Origin: Syntrophorhabdaceae bacterium
GTDB taxonomy: Bacteria; Desulfobacterota; Syntrophorhabdia; Syntrophorhabdales; Syntrophorhabdaceae
Length of the DNA: 35,787 bases
Assembly (NCBI GenBank): GCA_028713955.1
Contig: JAQTNJ010000010.1
Location: 1-35,787, forward strand
Direction of reading: 5' to 3'
Shown piece by piece: positions 7,360 through 29,987 of this stretch. Below the pieces are notes generated by a model. The model was not told the origin of the DNA, did no database searches, and saw only the letters and a program-made list of their open reading frames with translations. A program made the translations under genes and the position numbers. Each line of letters starts with the position of its first letter. The first letter of the stretch is position 1.

Positions 7360-7387
7360 TTATAACTCCTGCTTCAACTTTCAACTC

Positions 7388-9685: not shown

Positions 9686-9714
9686 TGTCCAGCCCTCTCG
9701 TTACCTGACCCCTG

Positions 9715-10545
9715 ATCTCCGGTCCCTGTTCTACGTCTCATGCCTTTCCAGGAGTTGTTTGAGTTTCTGCCCCAGTTCCTGCAGGTTCTGCGCTGCCGCC
9801 TCAACCTGCCGGGTGCCGGCCACATTCTGCACGCTCGCCTGGTTGATGCTTTCCATCGCCAGGACCACCTGATCCATCCCCGCCAGCTGTTGCTGGCTCG
9901 ATGCTGCAATTTGAGTTGATGCCTTCACCGCCTCGGTAATACTGTCCGCCAGCATCATGATGGCTTCTCCGGATGTGGCCGCCTGTTTCACACCTGCTTC
10001 TACAGCCTTGCTTCCCTGTTCCGTTACAATGACCGTAGAATTTATACCTTTTTGCACGTCGCTCAATATGGTTCTGACCTGTGCCGTAGCCCGCTTGGAT
10101 TGCTCTGCCAGGCTCTTTATTTCCTGTGCCACCACAACAAAACCTTTACCCTGCTCGCCGGCTTTAGCCGCCTCGATGGCGGCGTTGACTGCAAGGAGAT
10201 TTGACTGTTCGGCAATATCGTTGACAGTGGCCACCGTTTCGCCGATCGCATGGCTCTGCTCGCTCAGCCTGACAACCGTTTCGGCAATGGATTCCATCTG
10301 CCCCCGAATATAGTTCATGCTTTCGACGGTCTGTTCCAGGGATTTTTTTCCATCCTGCGATACCTGAAACGTTTTCTGGGCACTGTCGGAAACAGACCTG
10401 GCCTTTTGGCTTGAAAGCACTGCCGTCTGCTTCACCTCCTCCACAGTCGTTGTTGTCTCGTTCACTGCTGTAGCCGCCTGGGCAGCGGTAGATGCGAGTT
10501 CTGCGACCGTTGCCGTAATTTCGCTGGAAGAGGTAGCCAGGACGC
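9715..10545 (-). repeat. 831-base direct repeat, copy 1 (3' part of the first MCP gene)
   Basis: This block reappears at 11392-12222 at a constant offset of 1677 bases with no indel and no mismatch that I found on reading. It covers the whole MCP signalling domain, the stop codon and 16 bases beyond it. Similarity stops abruptly at both ends. Confidence 0.95.
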
Positions 10546-11353
10546 TAACCGCATCTTTCACCTCCCGTAATAAATTGCTCAGTTCATCAGCAATCCGCTG
10601 ACGTTCGGTCAAATCTCTGAAAACAGAAAAGATGTATCCGAGCACAACAAAGTAAGCGATCAGACGCAACAGATGCCAGAGCCACCATTCAGAACCCCAC
10701 GGATGCCCGAATGGGAATAACAGCCCTGCCGAAGCATTCAAAAAACAAAAGAAGGCAAACAGGATTTCTTCCGCTTCCCCGTTGGTCCAATAACGGACAA
10801 GAAAGAATATCGCCGCCACTATAAAAAAGATCCCCCCAAGAACGTTGACGACTGAGGCGGTCAGGGTAAAATTTCCCTCCACAATCATCGGGGGCAGCTT
10901 CTCCACAAGGACAAGCGATAGTATCCCGATGATAATAGTCACCGTAGCCGTAAAAGCAGGAATACCTCTTGCGATCCTCGATTTTGCGCTTCTTAGAGGT
11001 ATCCAGGCCATGCTGAACAAAAAACCACCAATCAGTATTGCCATGCTGTGCAGCCAGACAAAGTTATTGCCTGATCTGACGGACGCATGGAAGCCATCCA
11101 GAATGCCCAGACCAACCAACGCTGATGATATCCAGATATAATGAGAGATGTCTTTCTGCCGTTCTTCTTGAAACATGAGAAGGATCGCGAGAGACAGGCC
11201 GGCAAATAATCCTAAGGCCTCGAGGGCTGAATGAAAAGGCTCATTAAGCCATTTCCAATCAGGTATCAAGTACCTCAAAATAAAGGCTAAAATGAGGGGG
11301 AGAACCCCTCCCAGGAGTATGCTCCATAACACACCCAATTTAGACTTTTTCAT
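9731..11353 (-). CDS. Methyl-accepting chemotaxis protein with a multi-pass membrane sensor
   Basis: 540 residues. The N-terminal half (about 8-250) is hydrophobic, with seven or eight predicted membrane segments. It contains motifs such as [18 protein letters not shown] and WLHSMA, which resemble MASE-type integral membrane sensors; I cannot name the family with certainty. The C-terminal MCP domain (about 265-540) has the conserved hairpin tip [16 protein letters not shown], which contacts CheW and CheA. There is no HAMP domain and no CheR-docking NWETF pentapeptide; the protein ends in RHET. A strong ribosome site (GGAGGG) precedes ATG 11353. From about residue 270 to the end it appears identical to the MCP encoded just upstream. 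It plays the WspA role (signal input). Confidence 0.93.
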
Positions 11354-11391
11354 CCGTACCCTCCTTTTTAGTTTGGTTTGCTTATGTGTTC

Positions 11392-12222
11392 ATCTCCGGT
11401 CCCTGTTCTACGTCTCATGCCTTTCCAGGAGTTGTTTGAGTTTCTGCCCCAGTTCCTGCAGGTTCTGCGCTGCCGCCTCAACCTGCCGGGTGCCGGCCAC
11501 ATTCTGCACGCTCGCCTGGTTGATGCTTTCCATCGCCAGGACCACCTGATCCATCCCCGCCAGCTGTTGCTGGCTCGATGCTGCAATTTGAGTTGATGCC
11601 TTCACCGCCTCGGTAATACTGTCCGCCAGCATCATGATGGCTTCTCCGGATGTGGCCGCCTGTTTCACACCTGCTTCTACAGCCTTGCTTCCCTGTTCCG
11701 TTACAATGACCGTAGAATTTATACCTTTTTGCACGTCGCTCAATATGGTTCTGACCTGTGCCGTAGCCCGCTTGGATTGCTCTGCCAGGCTCTTTATTTC
11801 CTGTGCCACCACAACAAAACCTTTACCCTGCTCGCCGGCTTTAGCCGCCTCGATGGCGGCGTTGACTGCAAGGAGATTTGACTGTTCGGCAATATCGTTG
11901 ACAGTGGCCACCGTTTCGCCGATCGCATGGCTCTGCTCGCTCAGCCTGACAACCGTTTCGGCAATGGATTCCATCTGCCCCCGAATATAGTTCATGCTTT
12001 CGACGGTCTGTTCCAGGGATTTTTTTCCATCCTGCGATACCTGAAACGTTTTCTGGGCACTGTCGGAAACAGACCTGGCCTTTTGGCTTGAAAGCACTGC
12101 CGTCTGCTTCACCTCCTCCACAGTCGTTGTTGTCTCGTTCACTGCTGTAGCCGCCTGGGCAGCGGTAGATGCGAGTTCTGCGACCGTTGCCGTAATTTCG
12201 CTGGAAGAGGTAGCCAGGACGC
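11392..12222 (-). repeat. 831-base direct repeat, copy 2 (3' part of the second MCP gene)
   Basis: Partner of 9715-10545. At the low-coordinate edge, 11381-11394 additionally matches 14 bases inside cheA (9621-9634). Copy 2 thus looks like copy 1 plus a piece of the start of cheA, with the 80 bases between them (9635-9714) deleted. Confidence 0.95.
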
Positions 12223-13405
12223 GGACTGTTTCTTTTATTTCTTGTAACAGATTGGCCAACTTGGTGATGTCACGGGCGGCAGCAAATACACCCTGCACCT
12301 CTCCAGCCTCGTTCTTGTATATGCTGGCATTGTAGAGCACATCTATGGTGCGGCCCGAGCTGTGGCGGATAGTAAGGAGATAGTCTTTGACGATACCCTG
12401 TGAAAAAACCTGCTTATACACCTCTCTCGCCTTTTCCGGTTCCGTAAAGTAGTCAGAGAAATCACTGCCGATCAGGCCCTCGCGTGAAACACCGGTTACC
12501 TCCTCGGTAGTCTTATTCACATCTGTTATCTTTCCATCAGGGCTGATTGTAATCAAAGGGTCAAGGCTTGCTTCGATCAGGTTTCGGGTATAGAGCGATG
12601 CATCCCGTATCTCTTGCTCCATCTTCATCCGTTCGGAAATATCTTTGCTGAAGGAGTTTATCATAAGGCCTAATTCCCCTTCCCCCTTTTTATAAGCAGA
12701 AATATCTGCGGTCAGATCTCTTGAAAGAACCATATTCGTCGCAACCTTTAAAGGTCTGGTGATACTTAAGGTCAGAATGATGGCTACTGCCACAGACAGC
12801 GCTACGCCTACTACCCCAAAGATGAGCAGAGTCATGCGCGCAATGGCTTGGTCTTTTTCCGTCTGATCGTAACGCATGCTGTTGCGCTCTTCATTACGTC
12901 TTATAAGATTGTCTGCATGTTCTATCCATTGCCCCACTGCGGGGCCGGCCTTCTTAATCATCAAATCCAGGGCTTCAGCATGCTTGCCTGCCATGGCCAG
13001 ATCAAGCACCTTATTGTTTAGTTGTCTTGATGCATCCTGAGAAGCCTTGATTTTGGAGATTATATCCCATGTCTCTGTATCGTCCTTTGCGGTTAATTCC
13101 TGGAGTTTTTCAAAATCGGTATCATATTTTTTCCTGGATTTATCAATCTTGTTTTTTATTTCCCGTGCCTTTCCGGTTTCTTTCAGTAACAGGACTGTGC
13201 GGAGGGCGATAGACACTTCTCTCACATCGTCAACCATATTGTTTGCCATAAGAAGACGGATATTATTAACCCTCACAATACGATTAAGATTTTCATGGCT
13301 GATATTTATGCTGTTCAAACTGGCCGCGATTACGGCAATCATAAGAACAAGTATAAGACCGAAGCCCAATCCAAGACGCTGCCCAATTTTCATGCTTTGT
13401 AACAT
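11408..13405 (-). CDS. Methyl-accepting chemotaxis protein: 4-helix-bundle sensor, HAMP, PAS
   Basis: About 665 residues from ATG 13405, chosen because GGAGGA lies 7 bases upstream; a GTG one codon earlier is less likely. A membrane segment (about 8-30) and a periplasmic four-helix-bundle sensor (about 35-185, 4HB_MCP type) come first. A second membrane segment (about 190-213), a HAMP-like stretch beginning [10 protein letters not shown], a PAS domain (about 270-385) and the MCP signalling domain (about 395-665) follow. The signalling domain appears identical to that of the downstream MCP. It joins periplasmic sensing with a cytoplasmic PAS input, so the two MCPs feed different signals into the same CheA. 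Confidence 0.93.
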
Positions 13406-13437
13406 CACAGATTCCTCCTTTGAAAAGATGAAATCTT

Positions 13438-14067
13438 TTAACCGGCATCTTCATGCACGATAATATTTTTGTCGGACAACAGTTTTCCTGCGTCCAGAAC
13501 GGCCGCTCGCCCTCTCGTAACTCCCTTGAGATATTGTGCGCGAATGCCGGTAAAACCCGGAAGCGACTGTTGAATTTCGCTGAGCATGATATGGCGCGTG
13601 CCTAGCACGACATCGGCAAGGATGCCAAATTCCATTGAATCATCACGAATGATGATAACCTTATTGAGATCCGTCAAACCTTTTTCCGGAAGGTCGAAAA
13701 ACTTCTTGATGTCGATGACCGACAGAATCTGACCGCGCACGTTGATGATGCCCAAGACAAACGGAGGCGTGCCAGGTACCGGTGTTAATTCTTTCATCGG
13801 GTAGACTTCACGGACATAGAACGATTCAATGGCGTATTCTTCATATGCCAGGCTAAATGCCACAACATCGATATATCCGGTATCGGTTTCCTTCTCTTCC
13901 CGTTCTTGTGACAGAGTCCTGGCTCTCTCTTTAAGGATCTTAATCTTCTCCTCTTGGGTCTTTGCACAACCTTGTTCCATGGCAAGCCGAGCGGTTTCAA
14001 CGCGGCTATGTACCTGCCGCCAGTCTATACTACGCGCTGCTTTGTCTGTTTCTGCTATTTCAGGCAT
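13438..14067 (-). CDS. cheW: CheW-type coupling protein with N-terminal extension (WspD-like)
   Basis: 209 residues. The CheW fold spans about 65-200 ([14 protein letters not shown], then [19 protein letters not shown]). About 60 extra residues, charged and helical, precede it. A larger second CheW directly after CheR-TPR is the arrangement of WspD in the wsp operon. It bridges MCPs to CheA. The start (GGGA 6 bases upstream of ATG 14067) overlaps the end of cheR by 13 bases, so the two are translationally coupled. Confidence 0.93.
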
Positions 14068-15584
14068 GTCAATCCCTTTTCCCGGCTGATTAATCCTACA
14101 ATCTCTCCAAGTCTCCCGGCAGTAATCCCGTCTGATTCAGGTAATGTTTCATCTTGCCGACATTTCTGAAGCAGCATAAGCACATTCTTAAAATGTTTTT
14201 CCACCTCTTTTGGTTTCTCCAGCCTGCCCTTGAGGATACCCATTGCAAAGTGGGCCAGTATAAAATCCGGATCGAGATAGAGCGCCCGTTTCAAAGATGC
14301 GACCGCTTCTCCCGTAGCCCCCTGTTCCTGGAGGATTGTGGCACGCAGATAATGCAACCCGGAAACGAGCTTATCCGAGGCGATGGCTTTTTCACACCAT
14401 CTGCGCGCCTCCATGAGTTCGCCCTGGTTGGCATAAGCGCGTGCGAGCAACGACAGGACCATCGCCATATCCTCATGATCCGAAACCAGTTCCAGAAGTT
14501 CCGGTATTGCTTCTCCATAGCGACCTTGTTCATAAAGCGCTTGTGCCTTTACATACGGCGGCGGTGCCTTTTCCGCTTCCTTTTCTTCAGCTTTCGACCG
14601 CTTCACTATCTTCGTTTCGCGCATCGGAACCATATCTCGTTTCATTGCAGAATCAACGCATAGCTTAACAGGCGCCTGGGCCTCTTCATGTGCAAGGGAA
14701 GGAATTGCGTGGTGAATATCTTTTGCCTCCCGGTGGCTTCCGTCTTTCTTGTAGAGAATAGCGTCTGAAAAACGCACGGCTGTAAATGGCGGCGATGGGA
14801 TATAGGAACTTTCAACCGGATTGATAACCATCCAACCTTCATCCACAAGGGAACGGGACAAATTGTGAACTACTTTCTTCGCCGACGTTTCGGCAAAATA
14901 CATAAGCACATTACGACAGAAGATGACATCCATGGCATTGGTCTGATTCGAAAGTGAGGGATATGAATCTTCAACCAGATTGAGATAGGAAAAGGTCACC
15001 ATATCCCTGATCTCAGGCAAAATCTCAAACTGGTCTTTCCTCGACCTTTGGAAATATTTTTCCTGCACCCATTGGGGGCAGTCTCGAAATGACCACTTGC
15101 CGTACAACCCCTCCGACGCTTTATGAAGAAAACAGGGGTTGATGTCCGTAGCCAGGATCGAAATATTCCAGGCCTTCAGATCAGGGAACATTTTGTGGAG
15201 TAATATGGCAATGGAATATGGTTCCTCGCCGGTGCAACACCCGGCGCTCCAGAATCTGAGACTCTTTCCTGTCCTTCGACGGGCGTTAATCAGTTCCGGA
15301 ATAACTCGCTCCTCAAGAACCTCAAATACGCGTTTCTCTCTGAAAAAATAGGTTTCTCCGATAGTGAGATAACTGGCCAGTATTTCAATCTGGTTCTTTG
15401 TGGGCGGCGACGAAGAAAGAAGCCAGTCTGCAAATGCGTCGTTATCGTTGAAATTTAAATCGGCGAGGGATTTCATTATTTTTCTTTCCAAGTCGGCCCA
15501 CTTCTGCCTGGGGTAGGAAAGTCCCATGTAATGCTCCAAATAGTCGGCGAGCTGAAAAAGCGTGTCGTTGGAAAGGGTGCTCAT
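14055..15584 (-). CDS. cheR: CheR methyltransferase with C-terminal TPR repeats (WspC-like)
   Basis: 509 residues. The N-terminal CheR helical domain is followed by the SAM-dependent methyltransferase domain. Conserved segments are TIGETYFFR (74-82), the SAM-binding SAGCCTGEEPYS (113-124) and FCRNVLMYF (222-230). A charged linker (about 290-340) leads to TPR repeats (about 342-470). It methylates glutamates on the MCPs. Neither MCP carries a CheR-docking pentapeptide, so the TPRs may provide receptor binding instead, as proposed for WspC-type enzymes. It overlaps the upstream cheW by 4 bases. Confidence 0.95.
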   Translation of the reverse strand: MSTLSNDTLFQLADYLEHYMGLSYPRQKWADLERKIMKSLADLNFNDNDAFADWLLSSSPPTKNQIEILASYLTIGETYFFREKRVFEVLEERVIPELINARRRTGKSLRFWSAGCCTGEEPYSIAILLHKMFPDLKAWNISILATDINPCFLHKASEGLYGKWSFRDCPQWVQEKYFQRSRKDQFEILPEIRDMVTFSYLNLVEDSYPSLSNQTNAMDVIFCRNVLMYFAETSAKKVVHNLSRSLVDEGWMVINPVESSYIPSPPFTAVRFSDAILYKKDGSHREAKDIHHAIPSLAHEEAQAPVKLCVDSAMKRDMVPMRETKIVKRSKAEEKEAEKAPPPYVKAQALYEQGRYGEAIPELLELVSDHEDMAMVLSLLARAYANQGELMEARRWCEKAIASDKLVSGLHYLRATILQEQGATGEAVASLKRALYLDPDFILAHFAMGILKGRLEKPKEVEKHFKNVLMLLQKCRQDETLPESDGITAGRLGEIVGLISREKGLTCLK

Positions 15585-16090
15585 TGGGTCTGCCCCTCTT
15601 TGATCGCTTCATCGAGTGTGTGTTCTTCTTCGAGCGAAAGGAATGTATCGGGGTCATGGATAAGGATCATCCCGTCTTCGAGTTTGACCACTCCCTTCAC
15701 ATATTCCATGCCGGGGAGCACCGATCCTCCATCCGTGCATTGATCCTGCGGCACATCGATGACGTCATCCACATTATCCACGGTAAACGCGATAGTCCTG
15801 CGTACGGTTTTGATAATGAGAAGCTGGTCGCTGAGTTCCGATTGACGCGCAGTCATAAGGAAGCGGCCCCTGATATCAACTACGGGGATCACCTGACCAT
15901 GGACATTGATGATGCCCGCGACGATATCCGGCACCTTCGGAAGGGGCGTTATGGCAACGATCCTCTCAACCCGCATCACGGTTGAGAGTGGGACAGCAAA
16001 CCGCCGGTCATCAAGGGAAAACGAAACGAGCTCGGACATCTCGCTTTCGACTCCGCCTGGTGTGACATTTTTTTCTTCTATCTCGATCAT
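15581..16090 (-). CDS. cheW: CheW coupling protein (WspB-like), first gene of the chemosensory cluster
   Basis: 169 residues forming one CheW domain (LVSFSLDDRRFAVPLSTVMRVERI, then DIVAGIINVHGQVIPVVDIRG, read as separate segments). It links MCPs to CheA-REC. The ribosome site is weak. The leader upstream consists of degenerate GTATCTCG repeats, so the start is somewhat uncertain; a methionine at residue 19 is an alternative. I could not identify a convincing promoter for the chemosensory cluster. Confidence 0.92.
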   Translation of the reverse strand: MIEIEEKNVTPGGVESEMSELVSFSLDDRRFAVPLSTVMRVERIVAITPLPKVPDIVAGIINVHGQVIPVVDIRGRFLMTARQSELSDQLLIIKTVRRTIAFTVDNVDDVIDVPQDQCTDGGSVLPGMEYVKGVVKLEDGMILIHDPDTFLSLEEEHTLDEAIKEGQTQ

Positions 16091-17670: not shown

Positions 17671-17752
17671 TTAATTCGAATGTCGGACATCGAATATCGC
17701 TTTAAATTCGAAATTCTATATTCGAAATTCTATATTCAGCTTCACTTTACCT
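17671..17752. repeat. Intergenic degenerate repeat tract (ATTCGAAATTCTAT type)
   Basis: Includes two tandem copies of AATTCTATATTCGA-like units and ends in a TTCAC-type unit (CAGCTTCACTTTACC) that runs into the end of gvpJ. Confidence 0.65.
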
Positions 17753-18041
17753 TCTCTTCCAATCGCTTAATCCTCTTTTTCAATTCTTTTGCCTCGTCCT
17801 CAATAGCCTTTGCCTTTTTGCCATCGGATAGATATGAGTCCTGCTGCCACCAGTTGATCCCCATCTCCATCGCCTTATCAACGGATGCGATGAGCAGTCT
17901 TATCTTAATGGTTAAAAGTTCAATGTCGGCAATCCGTATCTGGATATCTCCCGCAATAACAATCCCTTTGTCCAGTACCCTCTCCAGTATATCGGCAAGG
18001 TTGGTAGCCTGTGTTGCATGCATCATCTGCTGTTCTGCCAT
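17742..18041 (-). CDS. gvpJ: Gas vesicle protein GvpJ (GvpA-family minor shell protein)
   Basis: 99 residues. The GvpA/J family domain spans about 13-70 (LADILERVLDKGIVIAGDIQ, then RIADIELLTIKIRLLIASVD). A charged helical tail (about 73-99) of Lys and Glu follows, which shell-forming GvpA lacks. Such GvpA-like proteins with tails (GvpJ, M, S) are needed in small amounts to start or cap vesicles. A strong ribosome site (AAGGAG) lies upstream, and the gene starts 11 bases after the GvpJ-GvpK fusion. Confidence 0.92.
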   Translation of the reverse strand: MAEQQMMHATQATNLADILERVLDKGIVIAGDIQIRIADIELLTIKIRLLIASVDKAMEMGINWWQQDSYLSDGKKAKAIEDEAKELKKRIKRLEEKVK

Positions 18042-18052
18042 AATGCTCTCCT

Positions 18053-18586
18053 TTATAGTAAATCTCCCAACGGGCCGAGATTCAGGTTCATATCTTTATC
18101 TTCAATGCCAAAGATCGCCTGGATTTCCTGCATCTTCTTCTTTACCGCCTTCAGGCTTAATCCGAGCTTTTGAATCTCTACCGGAGAAAGCGTTCCCTTC
18201 TTTACCCGCCTGAATGCCTCCTTCTCCATAAGCTTTCTTATCAACTCGACAATGGATAAAATGAGCTTCGCCAGACCCTGTTCCGTTTCCCTCGGGCTGT
18301 CCGCATTAATAAGCCTGGGGATATTTTCTTCAGCCTTTTTTATCTCTTTCTGCAATTTTTCGATATAAGCCCTGTCTTCTTCGGTCAATTCCCTTTCAGG
18401 GTTGCCGGGGCTTCTCCCGGATAGCTCTTCAGCCCTGGAAACCGAGGTGAGGATAAGCCTCAACCCCAGAAACACAAGGTCTACATCGGCTACCCTTATC
18501 ATCATATCGCCATTGATCACCGCCCCCTTTTCCAGGACTTTGTCCAGCACATCAACCAGCGTCACCTTGTCACGTTTGTTCAACAT
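18053..18586 (-). CDS. gvpK: GvpJ-GvpK fusion protein
   Basis: 177 residues. Residues about 6-60 are a GvpA/J-type domain (TLVDVLDKVLEKGAVINGD, then VADVDLVFLGLRLILTSV). After a charged linker, residues about 75-177 are GvpK: KLILSIVELIRKLMEKEAF RRV (about 107-128), PVEIQKLGLSLKAVKKKM, and the typical ending NLNLGPLGDLL. In most gas vesicle clusters these are separate genes. The frame is continuous with one ribosome site (GGAGGAG before ATG 18586), so the fusion is real at sequence level. It overlaps the upstream gvpF by 7 bases. Confidence 0.93.
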   Translation of the reverse strand: MLNKRDKVTLVDVLDKVLEKGAVINGDMMIRVADVDLVFLGLRLILTSVSRAEELSGRSPGNPERELTEEDRAYIEKLQKEIKKAEENIPRLINADSPRETEQGLAKLILSIVELIRKLMEKEAFRRVKKGTLSPVEIQKLGLSLKAVKKKMQEIQAIFGIEDKDMNLNLGPLGDLL

Positions 18587-19404
18587 GCCTTTTCTCCTCC
18601 GTTTGTAAAATTAAAAGGAGGCCAGGGGCCGCTGTATTCAAGGTTGATTCCTTTTGCTTTAAGGTCCTCGTCTATGTTCACAAGGGTCTTCTTAAATGAA
18701 TCAACCTTATCTGTGTTGATTAAAAAGGCTGCATTGAGGACCATTCTTTCTGTTTTACCCGTCATCTCCCTGTCAAGAATTCTTGTTTTTACTGATTCTG
18801 CTGCCTCTTCCCCCAGTTTTCCGAAGAGTTTATCTAACATGGTGTCCAGTTCTTTGTTTACTTCATTGCAAACAGTCTCTTTCAATTCTTCTTCCATAAA
18901 ATAGGCCATTCCGTCAGGCATAGAGATCATTTCTTTCTCTTTCAATTGAATTTTTTCACTTTTTTCTTTAACCGCTAACTCAAATCTTTCGCTATCCGTG
19001 AGGTATATCTTTACACTCCATTCCTGTTTTCCCCGAATCTTATTCAGCACCCTCTTCATCTTTTCATAGTCCCTGTTCAAGATTTCTTCCAGTCCTGTCT
19101 TGTTCTTAAAAATGATGCCGAATCTCATGGGGATCACATCCACAAGTCCGTCAGTCCCTCTCATGGCTTCTTCGATAACGTCTTCATGAATTACAACCTT
19201 TTCCTTGATCCAGTTAAGGTCCTCAAGAGCCTTCTTCTGTATTTCTTCGGATGTAAATCTTAATAAAGAAACTCTGCTGACAACGGCCTCCAGTTCGCGG
19301 TGAATGATGGTAAATACATCTCTTTTTCCATCAATGCTCCTTGTGCTGAATCCCGAAGCATCTTCGGTTTTTTCTCTTATGCAGTAAAGGTATAACCCAT
19401 TCAT
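18580..19404 (-). CDS. gvpF: Gas vesicle protein GvpF/L (paralogue 4)
   Basis: 274 residues from ATG 19404 (AGGA 8 bases upstream; an ATG at 19431 lies inside gvpO and is less likely). GvpF/L signatures are present: GLYLYCI at the start, IHEDVIEEAMRG and VIPMRFG in the middle, and a C-terminal YSGPWPPFNF. GvpF/L proteins bind GvpA and the other accessory Gvps during assembly. The final motif differs from the GPLPPYNF of the two paralogues at 20815 and 21582 (the one at 19938 has GTLPPFNF), and the protein is the most divergent of the four. It lies 4 bases after gvpO. Confidence 0.93.
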   Translation of the reverse strand: MNGLYLYCIREKTEDASGFSTRSIDGKRDVFTIIHRELEAVVSRVSLLRFTSEEIQKKALEDLNWIKEKVVIHEDVIEEAMRGTDGLVDVIPMRFGIIFKNKTGLEEILNRDYEKMKRVLNKIRGKQEWSVKIYLTDSERFELAVKEKSEKIQLKEKEMISMPDGMAYFMEEELKETVCNEVNKELDTMLDKLFGKLGEEAAESVKTRILDREMTGKTERMVLNAAFLINTDKVDSFKKTLVNIDEDLKAKGINLEYSGPWPPFNFTNGGEKAC

Positions 19405-19408
19405 TTTT

Positions 19409-19672
19409 TCATTCCTGTGATTGTTTTGCATTCATCCTTTCGTATGACTGAACATCCAGATTTTCATCAACCTTAATCTTATAGATATTGCGATCCTTCA
19501 CCTTTGTCGGCAGTCCGATAGATTTAATGAATGAACTTTCTTCATAGACCTCGACCTCTCCTTCCCATCCTTCAGGTATCTTTGTTATTTTTATAACCTT
19601 AGCGTCTTCCACCGAAAGTGTTCTTTTCAAAAACCCGCTCATCGCCAGGGTAGCCTCATCAATATTTGCCAT
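19409..19672 (-). CDS. gvpO: Gas vesicle protein GvpO
   Basis: 87 residues matching the GvpO family: an N-terminal helix (ATLAMSGFLKRTLS), then strands GWEGEVEVYEES and RNIYKIKVDENLDVQSYER. GvpO is a small accessory or regulatory protein required for vesicle formation in haloarchaea; its biochemical role is not settled. It lies between gvpG and a gvpF, 12 bases after gvpG. Confidence 0.9.
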   Translation of the reverse strand: MANIDEATLAMSGFLKRTLSVEDAKVIKITKIPEGWEGEVEVYEESSFIKSIGLPTKVKDRNIYKIKVDENLDVQSYERMNAKQSQE

Positions 19673-19684: not shown

Positions 19685-19921
19685 CTATTTTTCCTCTTCC
19701 TCTCCGTGGATTGCATTTAACCGTTTGAGAAGTTCCCTTTCCTGTCTTGTATATGTCTCTTCATCTATCTCATCCAGTTCAAAGCGTAACTGTAGTTCCA
19801 TGAGCTGCTCTTTTACAAGCCCCTCATCCGACGTCTCTCTCTGAACCACATCGTTAATCCTCTCGCTCAGCCAGATGAGACCTTTTAATGGCGAAAGGAC
19901 TATGTCATCTATAATAAACAT
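19685..19921 (-). CDS. gvpG: Gas vesicle protein GvpG
   Basis: 78 residues of typical GvpG composition: MFIIDDIVLSPLKGLIWL at the N-terminus, then a charged helix (KEQLMELQLRFELDEIDEE) and EERELLKRL-like coiled coil. GvpG is an accessory assembly protein that interacts with GvpF/L and GvpA. It sits between two gvpF/L genes, the usual neighbourhood. Confidence 0.93.
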   Translation of the reverse strand: MFIIDDIVLSPLKGLIWLSERINDVVQRETSDEGLVKEQLMELQLRFELDEIDEETYTRQERELLKRLNAIHGEEEEK

Positions 19922-19937: not shown

Positions 19938-20696
19938 TTACATGGCCTCCATACTGATCACCAGATTAACAAAATTAAACGGCGGCAGGGTTCCCACATA
20001 TTTAAACCTTACTTTGCTGCCAAACCTGTCTGCAAGCCCCTGAACTTCCATGTCAAATTTTTTCTCCTTTTCTTTTGTCACCAGAAAAGCGGCGTTAACG
20101 ATCATCAGGTCACCATACGTATTGTTCGTTTTAACCTGTTCTGAAAGGGGCGATAGCCTGCTTAATGCATCCTCCTTGTGCGATTCTTTCTCCTTCCGGA
20201 GAGCAGCTTCAACCATCCTGCCGATCTCCATCCGCTGATAATAAGACTTTTCGGGTGACAGCAGTGCGATCTTCTCTTTCAGAGCCTTTATATCATCGTA
20301 TTTTTCAAGAATTTCCTTATACACAAGGTCTTCCTTGAACATTATTTTCAAGCCGAGCTCCTTCTTGCCCTCCATATTTTTTAACAGCTCGACGAATCTG
20401 TGATGTTCTCTTTCCAATATCAGTCTTACCTTTTCCTCATCTTCAGCGATGGTCGCAAACCTGACCGGCAAAACCGTATGGGTTTTCATTACCTCTTCGA
20501 TGACCTGTTCATGGGGAATCAGATGCTCACGGGCAACAGGATATTTCCTGACGGGCGATCTGCTCACTACAGCCCCGAGATCCTTAAAGGATAGGGTGTA
20601 TACATCGTCGCCCCTTCCACCGATGCCTATGGCGCCAAAATGATGGGGCTCCTTTGACTCGATTATGCAGTATATGTATATTCCTTCTTCCGCCAC
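19938..20696 (-). CDS. gvpF: Gas vesicle protein GvpF/L (paralogue 3)
   Basis: 252 residues. Start is GTG 20696, with GGAGGG 9 bases upstream. GvpF/L signatures: GIYIYCII, HEQVIEEVMK, TVLPVRFATIA, VNAAFLV and the C-terminal GTLPPFNFVNL. It is closest in pattern to the paralogue at 20815-21582; the shared IGIGGR segment (residues about 23-28) is present in both. The 118 bases before it are a degenerate repeat tract. Confidence 0.94.
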   Translation of the reverse strand: MAEEGIYIYCIIESKEPHHFGAIGIGGRGDDVYTLSFKDLGAVVSRSPVRKYPVAREHLIPHEQVIEEVMKTHTVLPVRFATIAEDEEKVRLILEREHHRFVELLKNMEGKKELGLKIMFKEDLVYKEILEKYDDIKALKEKIALLSPEKSYYQRMEIGRMVEAALRKEKESHKEDALSRLSPLSEQVKTNNTYGDLMIVNAAFLVTKEKEKKFDMEVQGLADRFGSKVRFKYVGTLPPFNFVNLVISMEAM

Positions 20697-20734: not shown

Positions 20735-20818
20735 ATGTTCAACGTTGAACTTTAAACCTCAAACTGCCTTTCACCTTCCACCTTTCACATTTTACCTTTC
20801 ACTGTTCACTGCCTTCAC
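20735..20818. repeat. Intergenic degenerate repeat tract (TTTCACC / TTGAAC types)
   Basis: Units such as GTTCAACGTTGAACTTTAAACC followed by repeated CTTTCACCTTCCACC and TTTCACTGTTCACTGCC. It fills most of the gap between two gvpF/L genes and reaches the end of the upstream one. No gene is visible. Confidence 0.75.
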
Positions 20819-21582
20819 TTCTCCCACTCTTCCTGATAGATGGTGATGTTGACAAAATTATACGGAGGCAGTGGTCCTACATACAGAAACTTTATCCTGT
20901 CTTTTTGCGTTTCGCTTAGCTCCTCCATAATGTTGTCAAATTCCTTTTCCCTTCCCTTGCTCACTAAAAATGAGGCATTCATGAACATCTCGTCGCCAAG
21001 GGTATTATTCAGCTTGCAATCAAAGGCTGGGACCTTGAAGGCGTCAACAATCTTTTCGGTTTCTCCATTCTTTTTGTTCTTCAAAGCAGCCTCAACGAGC
21101 TTGCCAAGCCGTACCCTTGCCTGTATATCCTTTTGTTCTGCTCCCCCTTTCAGTCTTCTCTTTATTTTTATGATCTCTTTGTTCTCCTCTGCGATCTCCT
21201 TAAAGATACTGTCCATATCTTTCCACAACCCCTTAACGCCAAGCTCAACCTTGTGATCCACGTCCCTCAGAAGATTCTTGAATTCCCTGTACCTTTTGAA
21301 CAGAAGGCTCCGTATCTCATCAGTACTCGATGCAATCGTACAGAACCTCACCGGCAAAACAGTATATTCTTTCATCACCTCTTCAATAACCTTTTCATGG
21401 GCCAGGATATTTTCCCGGTTGACCACGAGTTTCATTAACGGGTGACTGCTGATTACCATTGCGAGGTCATCGGCCCCGATAGTGCCCACCTTGTCATCTC
21501 TGCCCCCGATGCCGATAGGACCAAAATCTCTGTCCTGCTGTGTGCTGATGATGCAGTATATATACTTACCCTCATGCTCCAT
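20815..21582 (-). CDS. gvpF: Gas vesicle protein GvpF/L (paralogue 2)
   Basis: 255 residues with the GvpF/L landmarks KYIYCII, IGIGGRDDK, HEKVIEEVMK, YTVLPVRFCTIA, MNASFLVSK and [13 protein letters not shown]. The ATG overlaps the stop of the upstream J-domain gvpF by one base (TAATG), indicating translational coupling. It probably contributes to the multi-protein complex that delivers GvpA. Confidence 0.94.
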   Translation of the reverse strand: MEHEGKYIYCIISTQQDRDFGPIGIGGRDDKVGTIGADDLAMVISSHPLMKLVVNRENILAHEKVIEEVMKEYTVLPVRFCTIASSTDEIRSLLFKRYREFKNLLRDVDHKVELGVKGLWKDMDSIFKEIAEENKEIIKIKRRLKGGAEQKDIQARVRLGKLVEAALKNKKNGETEKIVDAFKVPAFDCKLNNTLGDEMFMNASFLVSKGREKEFDNIMEELSETQKDRIKFLYVGPLPPYNFVNITIYQEEWEK

Positions 21583-22622
21583 TATTGTTCCTTTATCCTT
21601 ACGATTATTGAATTCCCGGCAAAGTCTTCCTCTTCGAAAGAACAGCTTTCATGTTGGCAATACTCAGAGAGCAGCCCGTATGCCTTTGTGATTTCGCCAT
21701 ATTCCATTTCTGCTTCTGCCCTTTGCGTATCGTCGGATTGTGCATTAAATTGTTTGTCAGGATGATATACGGATGCGTAACTTCTATAGGCCCTTTTGAT
21801 GTCATCTTTCGATGCACATACGTTGAGGCCGAGCTTTTTTCTTGCTCGGTCGATCTCTTCGTATTGCAGCTTTTTTATTTCAAGGACATAAAAGTTGTAA
21901 GGAGGAAGGGGCCCGATATACTTGAAATGGACCTTTCCGCTGAAACCGTTGTTTAGCTCATCCAGCCTTTCTTCAAAAGGAATACGGATACCGTTATCGA
22001 TAAAAAAGGCAGCATTCATGATTGTCACATCGTCCGTCATTGTATATTCTTTCATGTCCCGGCAGAGGCCTTTTAATGAATCCTTTATGGTATGGGTGTA
22101 TTCATCTTTTTTCTTATTCAAATAACCTTTAATGAGCACACCCATTTTTATCTGGTCATCGACTGTTACGCCTTCTTTCTTATTGAGAAGGGATTGTTTC
22201 AATGCCCTTACCTCTTCATTCCCGGATACCTCTTTGATGACCGTATTCAGATCAACCCAGGAAGCTATAACATCAATCTCCATCCTGCCTTCAACCTCTT
22301 TAAAAATCTCTTTAAACATCCGGTATCCCTTAGTCAGGACCTGCATAATCTCGTCTTCATTGAGAACATACGTCCCCAGTCTCATAGGGATGATGGTACA
22401 TTCCTGCATTACCTTCTCAATCACCAGTTGATGCTGAATAAGGTGCCGTGCTGCCACATCGCCTGGCAGGTTTGTATAATCGATTATTCCGTTGTCGCTC
22501 ACTACCGCAGAGACATCCCTATAGGGTACGGTGTAAATGCCGTTTGAGGTCAACAGGCCGGAACCCGCTGCATGGGATCCGGTATTCATTACGCCGTATA
22601 TGTATTTACCTGTATTGTTCAT
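21582..22622 (-). CDS. gvpF: GvpF/L fused to a C-terminal J domain
   Basis: 346 residues. Residues 1-250 are GvpF/L ([50 protein letters not shown]). Residues about 257-322 form a J domain: helix I ([12 protein letters not shown]), helix II ([14 protein letters not shown]), the invariant HPD at 287-289, and helix III ([16 protein letters not shown]). A short tail with Cys pair CQHESC follows. An intact HPD means it should stimulate DnaK/Hsp70 ATPase, so this GvpF may recruit Hsp70 to GvpA or to the nascent vesicle. The frame is continuous with no internal start needed. It overlaps the CDC48 gene by 4 bases. Confidence 0.93.
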
Positions 22623-24817
22623 ATGTCATCCTGCCCCGTATATATGGATGCCTTCTGTTTTTGTACCAGTTGTAACGCCTCTCCGAAATGCCTCTTTGTT
22701 ATAGTAAGTTTCGCCCTTGGAGTCTGGTTTATAAATTCCCTGATAGCCAGCATAGAGGCTTTCCGGCATAAAAACTCTATATCCGATCCAGCCAGATTGT
22801 CGGATTCCCTTGCTAATGCATGCAAGTCCACATCATTGCCGAGAGGTTTGTTTTGGGTGTGGATTTCAAATATGGAAAAACGTGCATCTTCGTCAGGGAA
22901 AGGGAGCTCAATGACAAGATCGAACCTTCCACCCCTCAGGAGCGCAGGGTCAATCATGTCGAGCCGGTTGGTGGCAGCCAGCACTACCACTCCCTTAAGT
23001 TCTTCAATGCCGTCCATTTCGGCCAGAAATTGGCTCACCACCCGTTCCGTTACGCCGGATTCCCCGATTCCCGAACCCCTTCTCGGGAGGATGGCGTCAA
23101 TTTCATCAAAAAATATGATTGCCGGTGAGGCCTGTTTTGCCGTTTTGAATACCTCACGAACACCCTTCTCGCTTTCACCGACAAACTTTGACATGAGACT
23201 CGGCCCCTTTATGGAGATAAAGTTGACTTTTGTCTCACTCGCAACCGCCTTTGCAAGCAGGGTCTTCCCTGTACCGGGTGGTCCATGAAGGAGAATACCT
23301 TTTGGTGGTTGGGTACTGGCAGTTCTGAAGACATCGGCATATTTTATGGGCCATTCTACCGCCTCCTTTAATTCCTGTTTAATGTCCTCGAGACCGCCTA
23401 CGTCATCCCATCGTACATCAGGCACCTCTACGAACACCTCCCGTATTGCAGAAGGCTCAACCTCTTTCATGGCGTCGAAGAAGTCGTCCATCGTTACTTC
23501 CAGTTTCAGGAGTGTTTCATAAGGGATTTCATCCACTTCAAAATCAATCTTAGGTAAAATCTTCCGGAGCGCAGACATGGCTGCTTCCCTTGCCAATGCC
23601 TCCAGATCTGCACCCACAAAACCGTGGCTGATCTCGGCCAACTTTTCCAGATCGACCCCGTTGGATGTTGCACCACTTCCCTGATGAGTTTCCCCTGATA
23701 AAGGCATGCCCCTCGTATGAATCTGCAGTATATGCAATCTCCCGTTTTTGTCCGGGATGGGGATTGAAATCTCCCTGTCAAACCTTCCCGGTCTTCTTAG
23801 GGCCGGGTCAAGGGTATTGGGAATATTTGTCGCTCCGATGACAATCACCTGTCCCCGCGACTGCAATCCGTCCAGAAGCGATAAGAGTTGGGCGACAACA
23901 CGCCGTTCAACCTGTTTCTCACCGCCCATGTCTTCCCTCTTCGGTGCAATGGCATCGATCTCGTCAATAAAGATTATTGAAGGGGCATGCTTCTGGGCAT
24001 CATCAAATATGCCCCTTAGACGCGCTTCGCTTTCCCCGTAAAACTTACCCATGATTTCAGGCCCGCTGATACTTGTAAAGTAGGCCTCGGTCTCGTTCGC
24101 CACAGACCGGGCGATCAACGTCTTTCCTGTTCCGGGAGGCCCATAGAGCAGTACGCCCTTGGGCGGGTCAATCCCGAGTCTCTCAAATATCTGCGGGTAT
24201 TTCAGGGGCAGTTCAATCATCTCCCTGATTCTTTGAATCTGATGCCCCAGTCCCCCGATGTCTTCATAGGAAATCTTTGTAGTCTTCTGCTCTCCTGCCT
24301 CTCTCGATTCTATTTGTATCTGTGTTCCCGGGTTTATTACTACCACGCCATCGGGGTTCGTGCTCAAAACCTTGAAATCGCTTGACCGGGAACCGAAAAG
24401 AGTAACCCTTACCCTGTCCCCTGTGATTACCGGCAACCCTTCGATAAGCGTACCGATATACCTGACATCCCTGTCTTTTTGAGACAGGCTCGAAAGCGTC
24501 AAGGGGGAGACTGTGACTCTCGCTGCCGGTTTGTGGTTTACCTTCCGAATCTTCACCTTCTCGTCTATGCCAACCTTTGCATTTTCTCTCGTTATGCCGT
24601 CCATCTGTATGAGTTTCTTCCCCCTCTCTTCAACATAACAGGGCATGAGCTTTACGGGTGTTTTTCTTTTCCCTTCAATCTCGATAATATCGCCGACGTC
24701 TAATCCGAGCGCTTTCATATCTTCAGGGTCAATCCGGACAATGGCCCTCCCAACGTCCCTTGGTAATGCCTCTTTCACCTTAAGGGCCATAATTGCCTCT
24801 TTATTTTTCTCTTTCAT
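22619..24817 (-). CDS. CDC48/VAT-type AAA ATPase with two AAA domains
   Basis: 732 residues (ATG 24790 is a possible alternative start). An N-terminal double-psi barrel-type substrate domain (about 12-185) precedes D1 (Walker A GPPGTGKT 226-233, Walker B DEID 285-288) and D2 (Walker A 512-519, Walker B 571-574). Arginine-finger regions ([13 protein letters not shown]) are present in both. A small hydrophilic insert lies in D1 at about 371-388. The layout is that of archaeal VAT and eukaryotic p97, which unfold or extract proteins; in bacteria it is sporadic. Being embedded in the gvp operon with 4-base coupling to the J-domain GvpF, it probably remodels or clears gas vesicle proteins. Confidence 0.95.
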
Positions 24818-24954: not shown

Positions 24955-25896
24955 TTATTGAAACAACGACTCCTTAAAGTTACCCAGCGCATCAATGCCC
25001 TTCACTTCTCTCGGACACAGGGGGGTAACTGTAATCCGGATATTGTCCATATGTTTTCTCAGGTAATCGATATATGTTTCCTGTCCCTTCCTTTTCTCTC
25101 TGCAGAATTTACAATGGTCGTTCTGCGGCACCACATTATTAATCACTAATTGTTTCACCTTTATCCCGTATGCATTCAGGTAGCCTATCATTCTCTCCGT
25201 TTCCCGAACAGCCATGTCCTCCGGGATTGTAACAACAACGAATTCGCATCGCTTACTGTCTTTGAAGAGACTGTGTATCCTGGTGACGGTCTTTTTCATT
25301 TCCACAAGAAAATCATCACCTTCATCGGGCCTGTATTTCCCGCCGAAGGTCGTTGCCACATAGCGGTATTTCCATCGCATCTTTGCCATGACCTTGATCC
25401 AGTCATCCAGCATGTCCGGCAGTGTTAAAAGCCTTAATGCATGGCCTGTGGGCGCTGTATCGACAATAAACTTATCGAATCTCCCTTCTTCTATCAGGTC
25501 CGTTATTATTTTTAGCCCCATGACTTCATCTATGCCGGGGATTGGAAGGGCAAATGCCGATTCGACATCTTCGGGATCTAAATAGGTAGAGGTATCGATA
25601 ATTTTTTTAATTTCTTTTTCATATTTTGCCTTGAAGGCTGAGAAGGCTTTTTTTGCGCTTATTTCGATCGCACTGAGGTTTTTTACGCTTTTAATATCTT
25701 CAACTCCATCGCCAATCTTTTGTCCCAGGCTGTCAGAAAGAGAATGGGCCGGGTCAGTAGAGATAATTAATGTTTTGAATATTTCTGATAAATACAGACC
25801 GGCACTTGCAGCGCAGGTTGTTTTTCCAACACCTCCCTTGCCGCCAAAGAGAATCAGTTTCAAAGGGGCATCGCTTAGTCCGGTCAATCCCATCAA
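24955..25896 (-). CDS. ArsA/Get3-family ATPase
   Basis: 313 residues with a single ATPase unit. The deviant Walker A GGKGGVGKTT is at 18-27, the family signature VDTAPTGHALRLL at about 164-176, and a CxxC pair at 262 and 265 (HCKFCREKR), as in Get3 and related dimeric ATPases that bind zinc. There is no arsenic-resistance gene nearby. Get3 proteins shield hydrophobic tail-anchor helices. In this operon a plausible client is hydrophobic GvpA, but that is inference. It starts 9 bases after gvpH and is separated from the CDC48 gene by the stem-loop gap. Confidence 0.93.
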   Translation of the reverse strand: MMGLTGLSDAPLKLILFGGKGGVGKTTCAASAGLYLSEIFKTLIISTDPAHSLSDSLGQKIGDGVEDIKSVKNLSAIEISAKKAFSAFKAKYEKEIKKIIDTSTYLDPEDVESAFALPIPGIDEVMGLKIITDLIEEGRFDKFIVDTAPTGHALRLLTLPDMLDDWIKVMAKMRWKYRYVATTFGGKYRPDEGDDFLVEMKKTVTRIHSLFKDSKRCEFVVVTIPEDMAVRETERMIGYLNAYGIKVKQLVINNVVPQNDHCKFCREKRKGQETYIDYLRKHMDNIRITVTPLCPREVKGIDALGNFKESLFQ

Positions 25897-25905: not shown

Positions 25906-26445
25906 TCATTTCTTTATCTTAATCTCCAGGATGCCATTTTTAAAAGAAGAGGTGAACGCCTTGTCCTTTCCCTTAGCCGGCAGCAGAACCTCCTTAAGGT
26001 ATTTCCTGTCTCCGCTTTTTGCAGAAATGTTGAGTATATCCCCCTTAAGGTCAATCTTTATATCGTTCTCATTCACGCCCGGCATTTCCGCATATATCCG
26101 GATCTCATCTTTTTCATCAAAGATATCGGTTATCGGTTCCCTTTCTTCCTCGACTTTTGCGCCACGAGGCGTTTTTTTGATGTTGCCGAAATGTTCAACA
26201 ACAGGTCTTCCCCCCACTGCCGTTTTCACAGAGAAACCGAATACGCCCTTCATACCGTCTTTCAGGTTACTGAAATCTATCTCGCCTTCTTTCTTTATCT
26301 CGCCGCCTGCCTTTTCCAGTTCAGATGCAAGGTCCACCAGTTTTTCAATGCCCTTGAATAGTCCTCCCAGTCCCAGGTCTCCAATCCCGAAATCGATGTT
26401 GATTGTATCACCACTTTTTTTACTGCCCTTCTTTTCCCCTGCCAT
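25906..26445 (-). CDS. gvpH: GvpH, Hsp20-type small heat-shock protein
   Basis: 179 residues. The N-terminal part contains IGDLGLGGLFKGIEKLVDLA and VFGFSVKTAVGG followed by VEHFGN, features shared with haloarchaeal GvpH. The C-terminal alpha-crystallin domain (about 100-179) includes IFDEKDEIRIYAEMPGV, KGDILNISA and FKNGILEIKI. It is a holdase-type chaperone probably acting on aggregation-prone Gvp proteins. ATG 26445 is followed 9 bases after its stop by the Get3-like gene, so the two are likely made together. Confidence 0.92.
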   Translation of the reverse strand: MAGEKKGSKKSGDTINIDFGIGDLGLGGLFKGIEKLVDLASELEKAGGEIKKEGEIDFSNLKDGMKGVFGFSVKTAVGGRPVVEHFGNIKKTPRGAKVEEEREPITDIFDEKDEIRIYAEMPGVNENDIKIDLKGDILNISAKSGDRKYLKEVLLPAKGKDKAFTSSFKNGILEIKIKK

Positions 26446-26896: not shown

Positions 26897-27814
26897 TCAG
26901 TTACTGTGTGTTGTTACTAAACCTTCCACTATCTCCTTCACCCTGTTTTGATTTGTTTTTGAGCCTACCCTGCTTGTAACAGACGACAATACGTCCTGAC
27001 ACATCCGGCTGAACATCCCGTTCGAACGGGAAGGTGATAAATTCTGGATCTTTGCGGCCCTTGCAATCATAATGCAGGCGCGAATGGTCGGCGCAAATTC
27101 GCACTTGCCCGATTCTCTTAAGCCCCGGACGATCCTTACTATCATTTCTACATCTTTTTTAGGAAGTCTCGATTTTGCATGGGTAATGGCAACTTCTGTT
27201 TCATGGTCAAAGTGGTCTAAATCCATCGTTACCATTCTGTCTCTCAGGGCGTCCTGACTTCTGTGCACTCCGGCATACTCCTCGGGATTGCTGGTAAACA
27301 GTGCGGTAAAATCGGGGTGTACCTTCAGATATGGCCCTTCCACCCCTCTTCCTGCCGGCAAATCCATAATCCGTTCCTGCAGAATAGACAGGAGGATGTT
27401 ATTTGCCTCCGGACGTGATCGCGTAAACTCGTCATAGATAAGGGTAAACCCGTACTTGCATGCCACAGTGAGGCGGTTATCAACCCATCTCTTGACCATG
27501 TCTTCCTCTGTCTTGAGGACCCTTGAGACAAAACGGTCAACCACCTTTCTCATCCTGTATCCATATTCACCACCCACAAGATTGGATGTGGTAAACTCTT
27601 CATCTCCATGAATTAAAACAACCGGTCTCCCTATCTTGCTTGCAACATGCATGGCAAGAGTAGTTTTGCCGGTGCCTGAAACCCCTCTGAAATGAACCGG
27701 AAAACCCGCCTTTATATAGAAGACTGCCCTGTCACTCACATCCTTTATGTATTTTGTTTCCACAAAGTCAGGTAAAGCAGCCGGCTCCAATATTGTTGTG
27801 TTTTCTTCAATCAT
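26897..27814 (-). CDS. gvpN: GvpN, AAA+ ATPase of gas vesicle assembly
   Basis: 305 residues of MoxR-type AAA+ ATPase. The Walker A GVSGTGKT is at 44-51, Walker B is LIYDEFTRSRPEANN, and sensor residues fall in TSNPEEYAGVHRSQDALRDRM (split here as two motifs: TSNPEEY and ALRDRM). GvpN enhances vesicle growth; family members interact with GvpA and, in cyanobacteria, GvpC. The start overlaps the upstream coiled-coil gene by 4 bases. Confidence 0.96.
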   Translation of the reverse strand: MIEENTTILEPAALPDFVETKYIKDVSDRAVFYIKAGFPVHFRGVSGTGKTTLAMHVASKIGRPVVLIHGDEEFTTSNLVGGEYGYRMRKVVDRFVSRVLKTEEDMVKRWVDNRLTVACKYGFTLIYDEFTRSRPEANNILLSILQERIMDLPAGRGVEGPYLKVHPDFTALFTSNPEEYAGVHRSQDALRDRMVTMDLDHFDHETEVAITHAKSRLPKKDVEMIVRIVRGLRESGKCEFAPTIRACIMIARAAKIQNLSPSRSNGMFSRMCQDVLSSVTSRVGSKTNQNRVKEIVEGLVTTHSN

Positions 27815-28143
27815 TTCGGTTTTCCTCCCAAAATGTTCTTAATATCATTCCAGATTATTTTCGCCTCAGCCAAATCCGCCCTTACTTCTTTTTCTCTTTT
27901 CTTGAAGTCATCTCTCATGGCATTGACATCTTTCAAAAGGTTGTCCCTGTTTTCCTTTAAATCCTTTTTCAGGTCTTTGCCCATTTCCGTATGAAGCCTT
28001 CTGGTTTCATCAAGAAATTCTGCCGTATCCTTTTTAATGGCATCGGTCCGGTCTTTCAATCCCCGTATCCTGTCTTTTCTATCCTTATGGCCTGTCAGAA
28101 TATCTTCAGAGAGATTTCTCATACCACCCGAAAAATCATCCAT
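27811..28143 (-). CDS. Short GvpC-like helical protein
   Basis: 110 residues, almost entirely charged helix (Lys, Asp, Glu, Arg). Its first 45 residues (GMRNLSEDILTGHKDRKDRI..., then DETRRLHTEM) follow the pattern of the start of the next protein upstream (SMRDLTEHILTSYNVRTKAL..., then EERKNM). It therefore looks like a shortened paralogue of that GvpC-like protein without the 33-residue repeats. GvpT-like proteins are an alternative label. It is coupled to gvpN by a 4-base overlap. Confidence 0.82.
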   Translation of the reverse strand: MDDFSGGMRNLSEDILTGHKDRKDRIRGLKDRTDAIKKDTAEFLDETRRLHTEMGKDLKKDLKENRDNLLKDVNAMRDDFKKREKEVRADLAEAKIIWNDIKNILGGKPK

Positions 28144-28195
28144 ATGGAGCCTCCTGATAAAATTCGTTTCTTGTTTAAAATCTCAGGTTTCCAGT

Positions 28196-29209: not shown

Positions 29210-29237
29210 AATTTCCTCCTTGTTATTTCAAATATAT

Positions 29238-29987
29238 TTACGCATATACTCTTTCAAGCCTTTCTTTCCTGAATGAATTGAGCATCATTTGTACATTCTC
29301 TTTCCTGTCCAGGTGTTGTACGGCCCGTTCTTTCGATTGAGTCTTAAATTGCTTGAGCATCAACTTTAAATCCTTAATTCTGAGTTCCCTTCCTTTAGAG
29401 AGAAGCTCCACCAGGGTAGAAGATAGTTCACTCTGTTCTTTCTGAAATGCCCTTAGCTTGGTGGTGACTTCCGCCTTTCTTTCTTCTTGTTTTTTGAGAA
29501 TGTCTTGAAGCATCTGATGAAATTCCTTAATCCTATCGATGTTATCCCTGTTCAGGGAACCTCTGAAACTTCCAAGGTTCTCTCTTATTGTCTTTGCCAT
29601 ATCTCTTTGTTCCGTAAGGTAACCGTTAAGAAGACCCCTCACTTCTCTTTCCCTGTCATCCTGGGATAAGAGAATAGTATTCATCATGGTATCAAAATCC
29701 TTTTTCCTGAGAGACTCATTTCTCGCAAGGATATCCCGTAACTCGATTTTTAATCTCTCTCTTTCCTGCTTTGTATTTGACATAGAGTCCTGGTATTCAC
29801 CAAGAACCGTCTGTGTATTATCAATAATTGTGCTGAGACTTTGCAGCCTATCTTCATATGAAGAAGTAATTTCCTCAAATTCACCAAGAACCGTCTGTGT
29901 ATTATCAATAATGGTACAGAGTAATTTTTCTTCGTATGAAGCAACAATTTCCTCAACAACATGTTTTAAGTTTACAGTATCCACCAT
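29238..29987 (-). CDS. Long helical GvpC-like protein, first after gvpA
   Basis: About 249 residues from ATG 29987, preceded by GAGAAGG 9 bases upstream (a TTG at 30005 and an ATG at 29996 are also in frame). It is nearly all helix and coiled coil, rich in Lys, Glu, Arg, Gln and Leu, with no membrane segment. Two copies of TIIDNTQTVLGE (28 residues apart) reflect an internal DNA duplication. Later segments (RGLLNGYLTEQRDMAKTI; MMLNSFRKER) echo the repeats of the adjacent gvpC-like protein. Its place directly after gvpA suggests a shell-binding protein, but the family is not certain. Confidence 0.83.
   Translation of the reverse strand: MVDTVNLKHVVEEIVASYEEKLLCTIIDNTQTVLGEFEEITSSYEDRLQSLSTIIDNTQTVLGEYQDSMSNTKQERERLKIELRDILARNESLRKKDFDTMMNTILLSQDDREREVRGLLNGYLTEQRDMAKTIRENLGSFRGSLNRDNIDRIKEFHQMLQDILKKQEERKAEVTTKLRAFQKEQSELSSTLVELLSKGRELRIKDLKLMLKQFKTQSKERAVQHLDRKENVQMMLNSFRKERLERVYA
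29795..29912 (-). repeat. Intragenic 34-base direct repeat, 84 bases apart
   Basis: 29795-29828 and 29879-29912 are identical (starting ATTCACCAAGAACCGTCTG on the plus strand). The 84-base spacing equals 28 codons, so the duplication keeps the frame and the helical phase (four heptads). Confidence 0.9.

Follow-up and report, generated by a model that had tools for sequence, protein, structure and literature searches.

The window, by which we mean the whole analysed stretch of 35,787 nucleotides, carries a gas-vesicle (gvp) gene cluster that lies entirely on the minus strand and runs from gvpA (30342) through gvpJ (17742). Between these two genes, the cluster encodes GvpN, an Hsp20, an ArsA ATPase, a CDC48-type ATPase, four GvpF/L proteins, GvpG and a weak GvpO match. 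Directly before gvpJ, a single minus-strand reading frame (18586 to 18053; the plus strand at the same place is full of stops) joins a GvpA-family shell domain to GvpK. In order of transcription, the features of the cluster are:

30124-30342, minus strand: gvpA, the major shell protein (NF006874, 131 bits, cut-off 100)
26897-27814, minus strand: gvpN (TIGR02640, 335 bits)
25906-26445, minus strand: Hsp20, GvpH-like (NCBIfam Hsp20, 138 bits, cut-off 140)
24955-25896, minus strand: single-domain ArsA ATPase of the gvp cluster (PF02374, 263 bits)
22619-24817, minus strand: CDC48-type AAA ATPase of the gvp cluster (PF02359 and PF00004)
21582-22622, minus strand: gvpF/L with a C-terminal DnaJ (J) domain (PF06386, 168.5 bits; PF00226, 38.6 bits)
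20815-21582, minus strand: gvpF/L (PF06386, 208.9 bits)
19938-20696, minus strand: gvpF/L (PF06386, 232 bits)
19685-19921, minus strand: gvpG (PF05120, 68.4 bits)
19409-19672, minus strand: GvpO-like small protein, below the Pfam cut-off (PF05800, 19.3 bits, cut-off 25)
18580-19431, minus strand: gvpL/F, directly upstream of the fusion and overlapping it by 7 nt (PF06386, 179.7 bits)
18594-18600, minus strand: strong Shine-Dalgarno sequence of the fusion gene, GGAGGAG, before its ATG
18053-18586, minus strand: gvpS/M–gvpK fusion gene, 177 aa (open reading frame with PF00741 and PF05121)
18446-18562, minus strand: residues 9-47 of the fusion, Gas_vesicle (GvpA-family) domain of GvpS/GvpM type (PF00741, class HMM, NCBIfam)
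18299-18445, minus strand: residues 48-96, linker with a predicted helix at 69-88 and a conserved EIKxAEENIPxLI motif (alignment, low-confidence AF2, dN/dS)
18056-18298, minus strand: residues 97-177, GvpK domain, a predicted two-helix hairpin with the conserved tail LNLDLGPLGxLx (PF05121; AF2 pLDDT about 73)
17742-18041, minus strand: separate gvpJ, 99 aa, directly downstream of the fusion after a gap of 11 nt (PF00741, 62.9 bits; NCBIfam GvpJ best, 53.7 bits)

Several further features of the cluster and its flanks deserve mention in their own right. The GvpL/GvpF–DnaJ protein retains an intact HPD motif, which is kept by all its homologues in 15 other gvp clusters of both fused-K and unfused-K types; as far as the sequence can tell, this suggests that the J domain may recruit Hsp70 to the vesicle assembly complex. 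Gas vesicles, GvpK and DnaJ come together in one paper of the open literature, a Streptomyces stress study. The combination of CDC48-type ATPase, ArsA and Hsp20 was found again in several related gvp clusters, with ArsA a tandem two-domain protein in clusters L043 and L044. Between gvpA and gvpN (27811-30005, minus strand) lie three open reading frames (110, 337 and 255 aa) whose sequence is repetitive and looks helical; none of them matches Pfam, and they are candidates for GvpC-like outer-surface proteins. The gvp cluster lies between two stretches (123-16090 and 30442-35671) that contain CheW, CheR, CheB-like, CheA-like, MCP, HD-GYP-like and sigma-54/two-component genes, several of these names coming from a reading of the sequence alone; given such chemotaxis-type flanks, buoyancy may be under chemosensory control. 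Two adjacent chemoreceptor genes in the flank share an 831-bp exact direct repeat (9715-10545 and 11392-12222), such that their signalling halves are identical and their sensor halves differ, pointing to a recent duplication or gene conversion.

The first-pass annotation of this gene had its coordinates and its length of 177 residues exactly right, omitting only the strand, and had described a shell-type GvpA-family domain and GvpK in one chain. Pfam searches bear this out, with both domains recovered in the same protein above the gathering score of 25 bits: Gas_vesicle (PF00741) at residues 9-47 with 51.6 bits (E 1e-13; profile positions 1-39 of 39), and GvpK (PF05121) at residues 97-177 with 96.6 bits (E 9.5e-28, or 2.0e-27 in the genome search; profile positions 5-85 of 85). 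Separate translation of GvpK from an internal start was rejected: the linker of the window gene contains two TTG codons only and no in-frame start with a Shine-Dalgarno sequence, and no conserved start of this kind was found in the linkers of its relatives. An AF2 model built from an alignment of 20 fused sequences, with two plasmid-borne rows left out, places an alpha-beta-beta-alpha (helix–strand–strand–helix) unit, a linker helix and a helical hairpin in that order at low confidence (mean pLDDT 56.8, pTM 0.45). With pLDDT poor across the S domain (33-50) and about 73 across the GvpK domain, we take the model to support secondary structure only. In a PDB sequence search, the N-terminal domain gave only weak matches, to the GvpA structures 8GBS and 7R1C, and the GvpK part gave no convincing match.

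Surveying 395 genomes of the window's phylum for GvpK, we recovered 30 genomes over the family cut-off, four of which carry it in fused form: the window's genome, two further members of its family and one genome from a different family. Within the window's family, GvpK is present in 5/39 genomes and is fused in all five, with frames listed as 178-191 aa (the window gene itself encodes 177). A scan of the GTDB species collection extended the fusion to metagenome-assembled genomes (MAGs) whose assignments span about seven phyla, with labels that include Syntrophus/Syntrophaceae, Nitrospira/Nitrospirae, Omnitrophica, Elusimicrobia, Phycisphaerales, Atribacteria, Desantisbacteria and Falkowbacteria; such labels and the binning behind them may err, but the independent contigs bearing the fusion are numerous. 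Among sampled genomes with GvpK, the fused form accounts for 6/12 in Nitrospirota, 1/2 in Elusimicrobiota and, counting those over the cut-off, 0/13 in Actinomycetota. Divergent S–K fusions also occur on sequenced plasmids of the cultured Methylosinus sp. C49 and Methylocella tundrae, where they are annotated as ‘GvpJ’. None of the viral contigs behind 420 pattern hits encodes a relative.

Comparisons among near relatives place both domains and the linker under protein-level constraint. The dN/dS values are 0.015-0.14 for the linker, 0.02-0.10 for the GvpK part and 0.05-0.16 for the shell domain, except in three comparisons with a single relative, L019 (0.40-0.80), which has an unrelated N-terminal leader that accounts for them. 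The linker is thus under purifying selection, and strongly so within the main clade. The source of the window is a draft genome of 371 contigs, which lends some ground to the view that an assembly or sequencing error, or a pseudogene, joined two genes; the first-pass annotation had named a sequencing error of this kind as one of two outcomes that would undo its claim. Such an error, like a chance read-through, is excluded because the fusion recurs in other genomes and the linker dN/dS is as low as given above. Since five genomes of the family, MAGs of about seven phyla and plasmids of cultured bacteria all carry the same architecture, and since dN/dS is low, we regard the entire class of artefactual explanations as having a negligible chance of being correct.

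We then asked which shell paralogue is joined to GvpK. Three class HMMs were trained by gene position, with S defined as the gene directly upstream of unfused gvpK, J as the gene directly downstream of it and A as the close relatives of the window's GvpA. The fused domain scored 77.6 bits with S, 49.9 with J and 21.9 with A, whereas the separate 99-aa gene scored 107.6 bits with J against 51.5 with S; these assignments are to be read with the position-based training and the short domain of only about 45 aa in mind. Across 22/22 distinct fused domains, S gave the best score. Outside the training set, a haloarchaeal GvpM (L053; 121.7 bits to NCBIfam GvpM, over its cut-off) scored best with S and haloarchaeal GvpJ with J. 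The NCBIfam models, whose training is independent of ours, rank the window's fused domain as haloarchaeal GvpM (37.5 bits) over GvpJ (29.5) and GvpA (19.4), with every score under the cut-off of its model, these cut-offs being set for haloarchaea. In the divergent Methylosinus and Nostoc fusions, it is a GvpA model that takes the top NCBIfam score, so that their assignment to S depends on operon context and the position-trained models.

Operon position and sequence signatures agree with these scores. The fused domain occupies the slot directly before gvpK, with A and J present as separate genes, and the C-terminal signature of J (GxxWWxxDxYL; EMGINWWxxDxYL after the domain) occurs in the separate 99-aa gene only. 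The fused shell domain is therefore of GvpS/GvpM type. The first-pass annotation had called it GvpJ and had envisaged GvpK joined to a J domain by which the vesicle tip is nucleated; this identity is contradicted by both NCBIfam and the class HMMs. The domain does belong to the GvpA family, and haloarchaeal and cyanobacterial clusters do have J next to K, but every classifier used types it as S, J comes second at 28 bits under S, the signature is missing and an intact, full-length GvpJ is the next gene 11 nt downstream, leaving this version very improbable. Pfeifer's 2022 review equates both Bacillus GvpS and Serratia GvpA2 with GvpM (PMC9501494). In RefSeq, two S–K fusions (L048:5872-6531 and L107:2533-3168) are named ‘GvpJ’, and their GvpK domain is thereby hidden.

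The genome of the window contains exactly three Gas_vesicle domains, namely A, J and the fused one. In 13 further genomes with the fusion, each other Gas_vesicle gene that we recovered and classified is A-type or J-type, and no standalone S-type gene was found in any of these 14 genomes. Around unfused bacterial gvpK, an S-type gene lies no more than 250 bp upstream of the GvpK domain in 35/55 loci; 15/55, all short loci, lack an S-type gene nearby, and 5/55, mostly with a haloarchaeal-like K, have a J- or A-like gene. Because an S-type gene adjoins unfused gvpK in most clusters and none besides the fusion was found in the fused genomes, we conclude that the fusion replaces standalone S rather than adding to it. 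In two plasmid clusters, those of Spartinivicinus and Nonomuraea, the S-type gene is in frame with gvpK and a single stop codon apart. We also noted a second, haloarchaeal-like GvpK group (L021-L030, L101 and L102), scoring about 62-79 bits with the Pfam model, in some genomes both of the window's phylum and of another; this group usually lacks an adjoining S-type gene and was never fused in the sample examined.

A phylogenetic tree of GvpK, limited in resolution by its 76 rows and 88 columns, recovered the 15 fused rows of the window's group as a 100/100 clade across many phyla, a spread for which cluster transfer is the best explanation. The alphaproteobacterial fusions grouped instead with the unfused gammaproteobacterial Spartinivicinus (99/83), and mapping the S–K label onto the tree forces at least two changes on its starred branches. 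An AU test rejected a single clade of all S–K rows (p-AU 0.009) and with it one origin for all of them, although the long branches of the alphaproteobacterial rows call for caution. With that caution, the N-terminal S–K fusion arose at least twice. A reverse order is seen in Nostoc sphaeroides, where GvpK (residues 18-99) is followed by a Gas_vesicle domain (115-153; 51.1 bits) that scores 40.4 with S against 30.0 with J; this K–S order is known from Nostoc in our analysis and from a review (PMC10903477).

To our knowledge, none of the major gas-vesicle systems studied can do without GvpK. Purified vesicles usually lack it (PMC11445434, PMC7688916), and the interaction of GvpA2 with GvpL needs each of GvpS, GvpK and GvpJ, all three of which have been proposed as seeding factors (PMC11445434). 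In B. megaterium, urea removes the weakly vesicle-bound GvpK-eGFP and mCitrine-GvpS, whereas GvpJ binds tightly and is retained (PMC11223475). The distinction between S and J matters for this reason, and because the gvpS and gvpK frames overlap there. Haloarchaeal GvpK binds the C-terminal half of GvpL (PMC8716928), and split-GFP signals for K–M and K–J in H. salinarum are weak (rf 1-5; PMC9501494).

Considering these data together, the reading that we favour, and consider reasonably likely, is that the covalent GvpS/M–GvpK protein replaces the separate gvpS (gvpM) and gvpK products and works as one subunit of the seeding or early bicone complex. Under this model, the alpha-beta-beta-alpha S domain would make shell-type contacts, either with GvpA/GvpJ or with the chaperone GvpL, and the GvpK domain, helical and held on a tether of about 45 residues, would stay on the cytosolic side and recruit GvpL and its cargo. 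The tether would set a 1:1 stoichiometry and a common location for S and K, bringing both to the same place at the same time. By analogy, GvpK probably acts beside GvpS/M also where the two are separate proteins. That the link bears on a tip or seed role for GvpK, as the first-pass annotation suggested, is reasonable; the partner, however, is not GvpJ, and the role is one that we infer. The idea of a seed role is itself already in the literature in other forms (PMC11445434, PMC10903477).

The main competitor to this functional reading is translational convenience, in which a stop codon was lost between adjacent gvpS and gvpK, leaving two domains that work independently, joined by a flexible tether, without direct S–K partnership. 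Adjacency and co-translation alone can yield a gene fusion, and the genomic record offers the raw material: S and K are adjacent or overlapping in most unfused bacterial clusters (by 47 bp in B. megaterium; PMC11223475), the single stop codon of the two plasmid clusters is all that parts their in-frame genes, and linker lengths vary among fusions from 44 to 97 residues. In H. salinarum, moreover, the gene directly before gvpK is gvpJ and not gvpM, which, with the weak K–M and K–J signals, keeps direct S–K contact tentative. On the other hand, fusion took place repeatedly, in one case with the order reversed, and simple loss of an S–K stop codon does not give this; the linker is also under strong purifying selection in the main clade, with its EIKxAEENIPxLI motif conserved. 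We therefore consider mere convenience unlikely, although it keeps a real share of the probability.

A bolder extension of the favoured subunit reading is that GvpS/M and GvpK together make up a single functional unit, universal to the gas-vesicle seed. Most bacteria would keep its two parts as separate neighbours, with S–K fusion having occurred at least twice and K–S fusion in cyanobacteria. GvpK would then serve the S/M shell paralogue as its dedicated adaptor, and GvpM/S would be carried inside GvpK in cyanobacteria, for which GvpJ has been named as the only minor shell protein; we offer this tentatively, judging its chances to fall slightly short of even. More generally, a covalent link to a minor shell paralogue ties GvpK to a definite partner and makes its early vesicle-building role easier to test, and recurrent fusion in both orders argues that this partner is GvpS/GvpM, not GvpJ. 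Structural work on the seed also gains a tractable construct in one chain, and engineered acoustic reporters gain a simpler list of parts; recognition of the fusion corrects database names, NCBI calling such proteins ‘GvpJ’.

We found no published description of an N-terminal S–K fusion in the open-licence PMC literature. Our analysis adds the assignment of the shell paralogue and shows the fusion to be widely distributed, complementary to standalone gvpS and formed repeatedly, in both orders. A close published precedent is the A. flos-aquae GvpK with a GvpA-like domain, which a 2024 review considered a possible GvpJMS–GvpK fusion and an interesting nucleation target (PMC10903477). This protein and its counterpart on Nostoc sphaeroides plasmid p4 (L052) resemble the window fusion in combining GvpK and an S-like-scoring GvpA-family domain in one chain. 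The Nostoc cluster likewise has a separate GvpJ, with no separate GvpS/M in the stretch examined. In the cyanobacterial fusions, the shell domain is C-terminal to GvpK, whereas in the window it is N-terminal, and the Nostoc and window GvpK domains fall in different parts of the tree, so that the fusions look independent, the Nostoc branch being long. The Methylosinus sp. C49 and Methylocella tundrae proteins (WP_142864684.1, WP_197732044.1) share with the window an S-type domain N-terminal to GvpK in one protein, here of 211-219 aa, and a separate J after it. They differ in their 31-35% identity to the window fusion, in a degenerate GvpK tail and in forming their own branch beside unfused gammaproteobacterial GvpK, apart from that of the window. 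Finally, the unfused gvpS and gvpK of B. megaterium, of Kitasatospora/Streptomyces-type and Spartinivicinus clusters and of many clusters in the window's phylum encode as two proteins what the window encodes as one, and agree with it in domain types, in their order and in their place in the operon, after gvpL/G and before gvpJ if there is one—that is, L–S–K–J in B. megaterium and L–[S–K]–J in the window.
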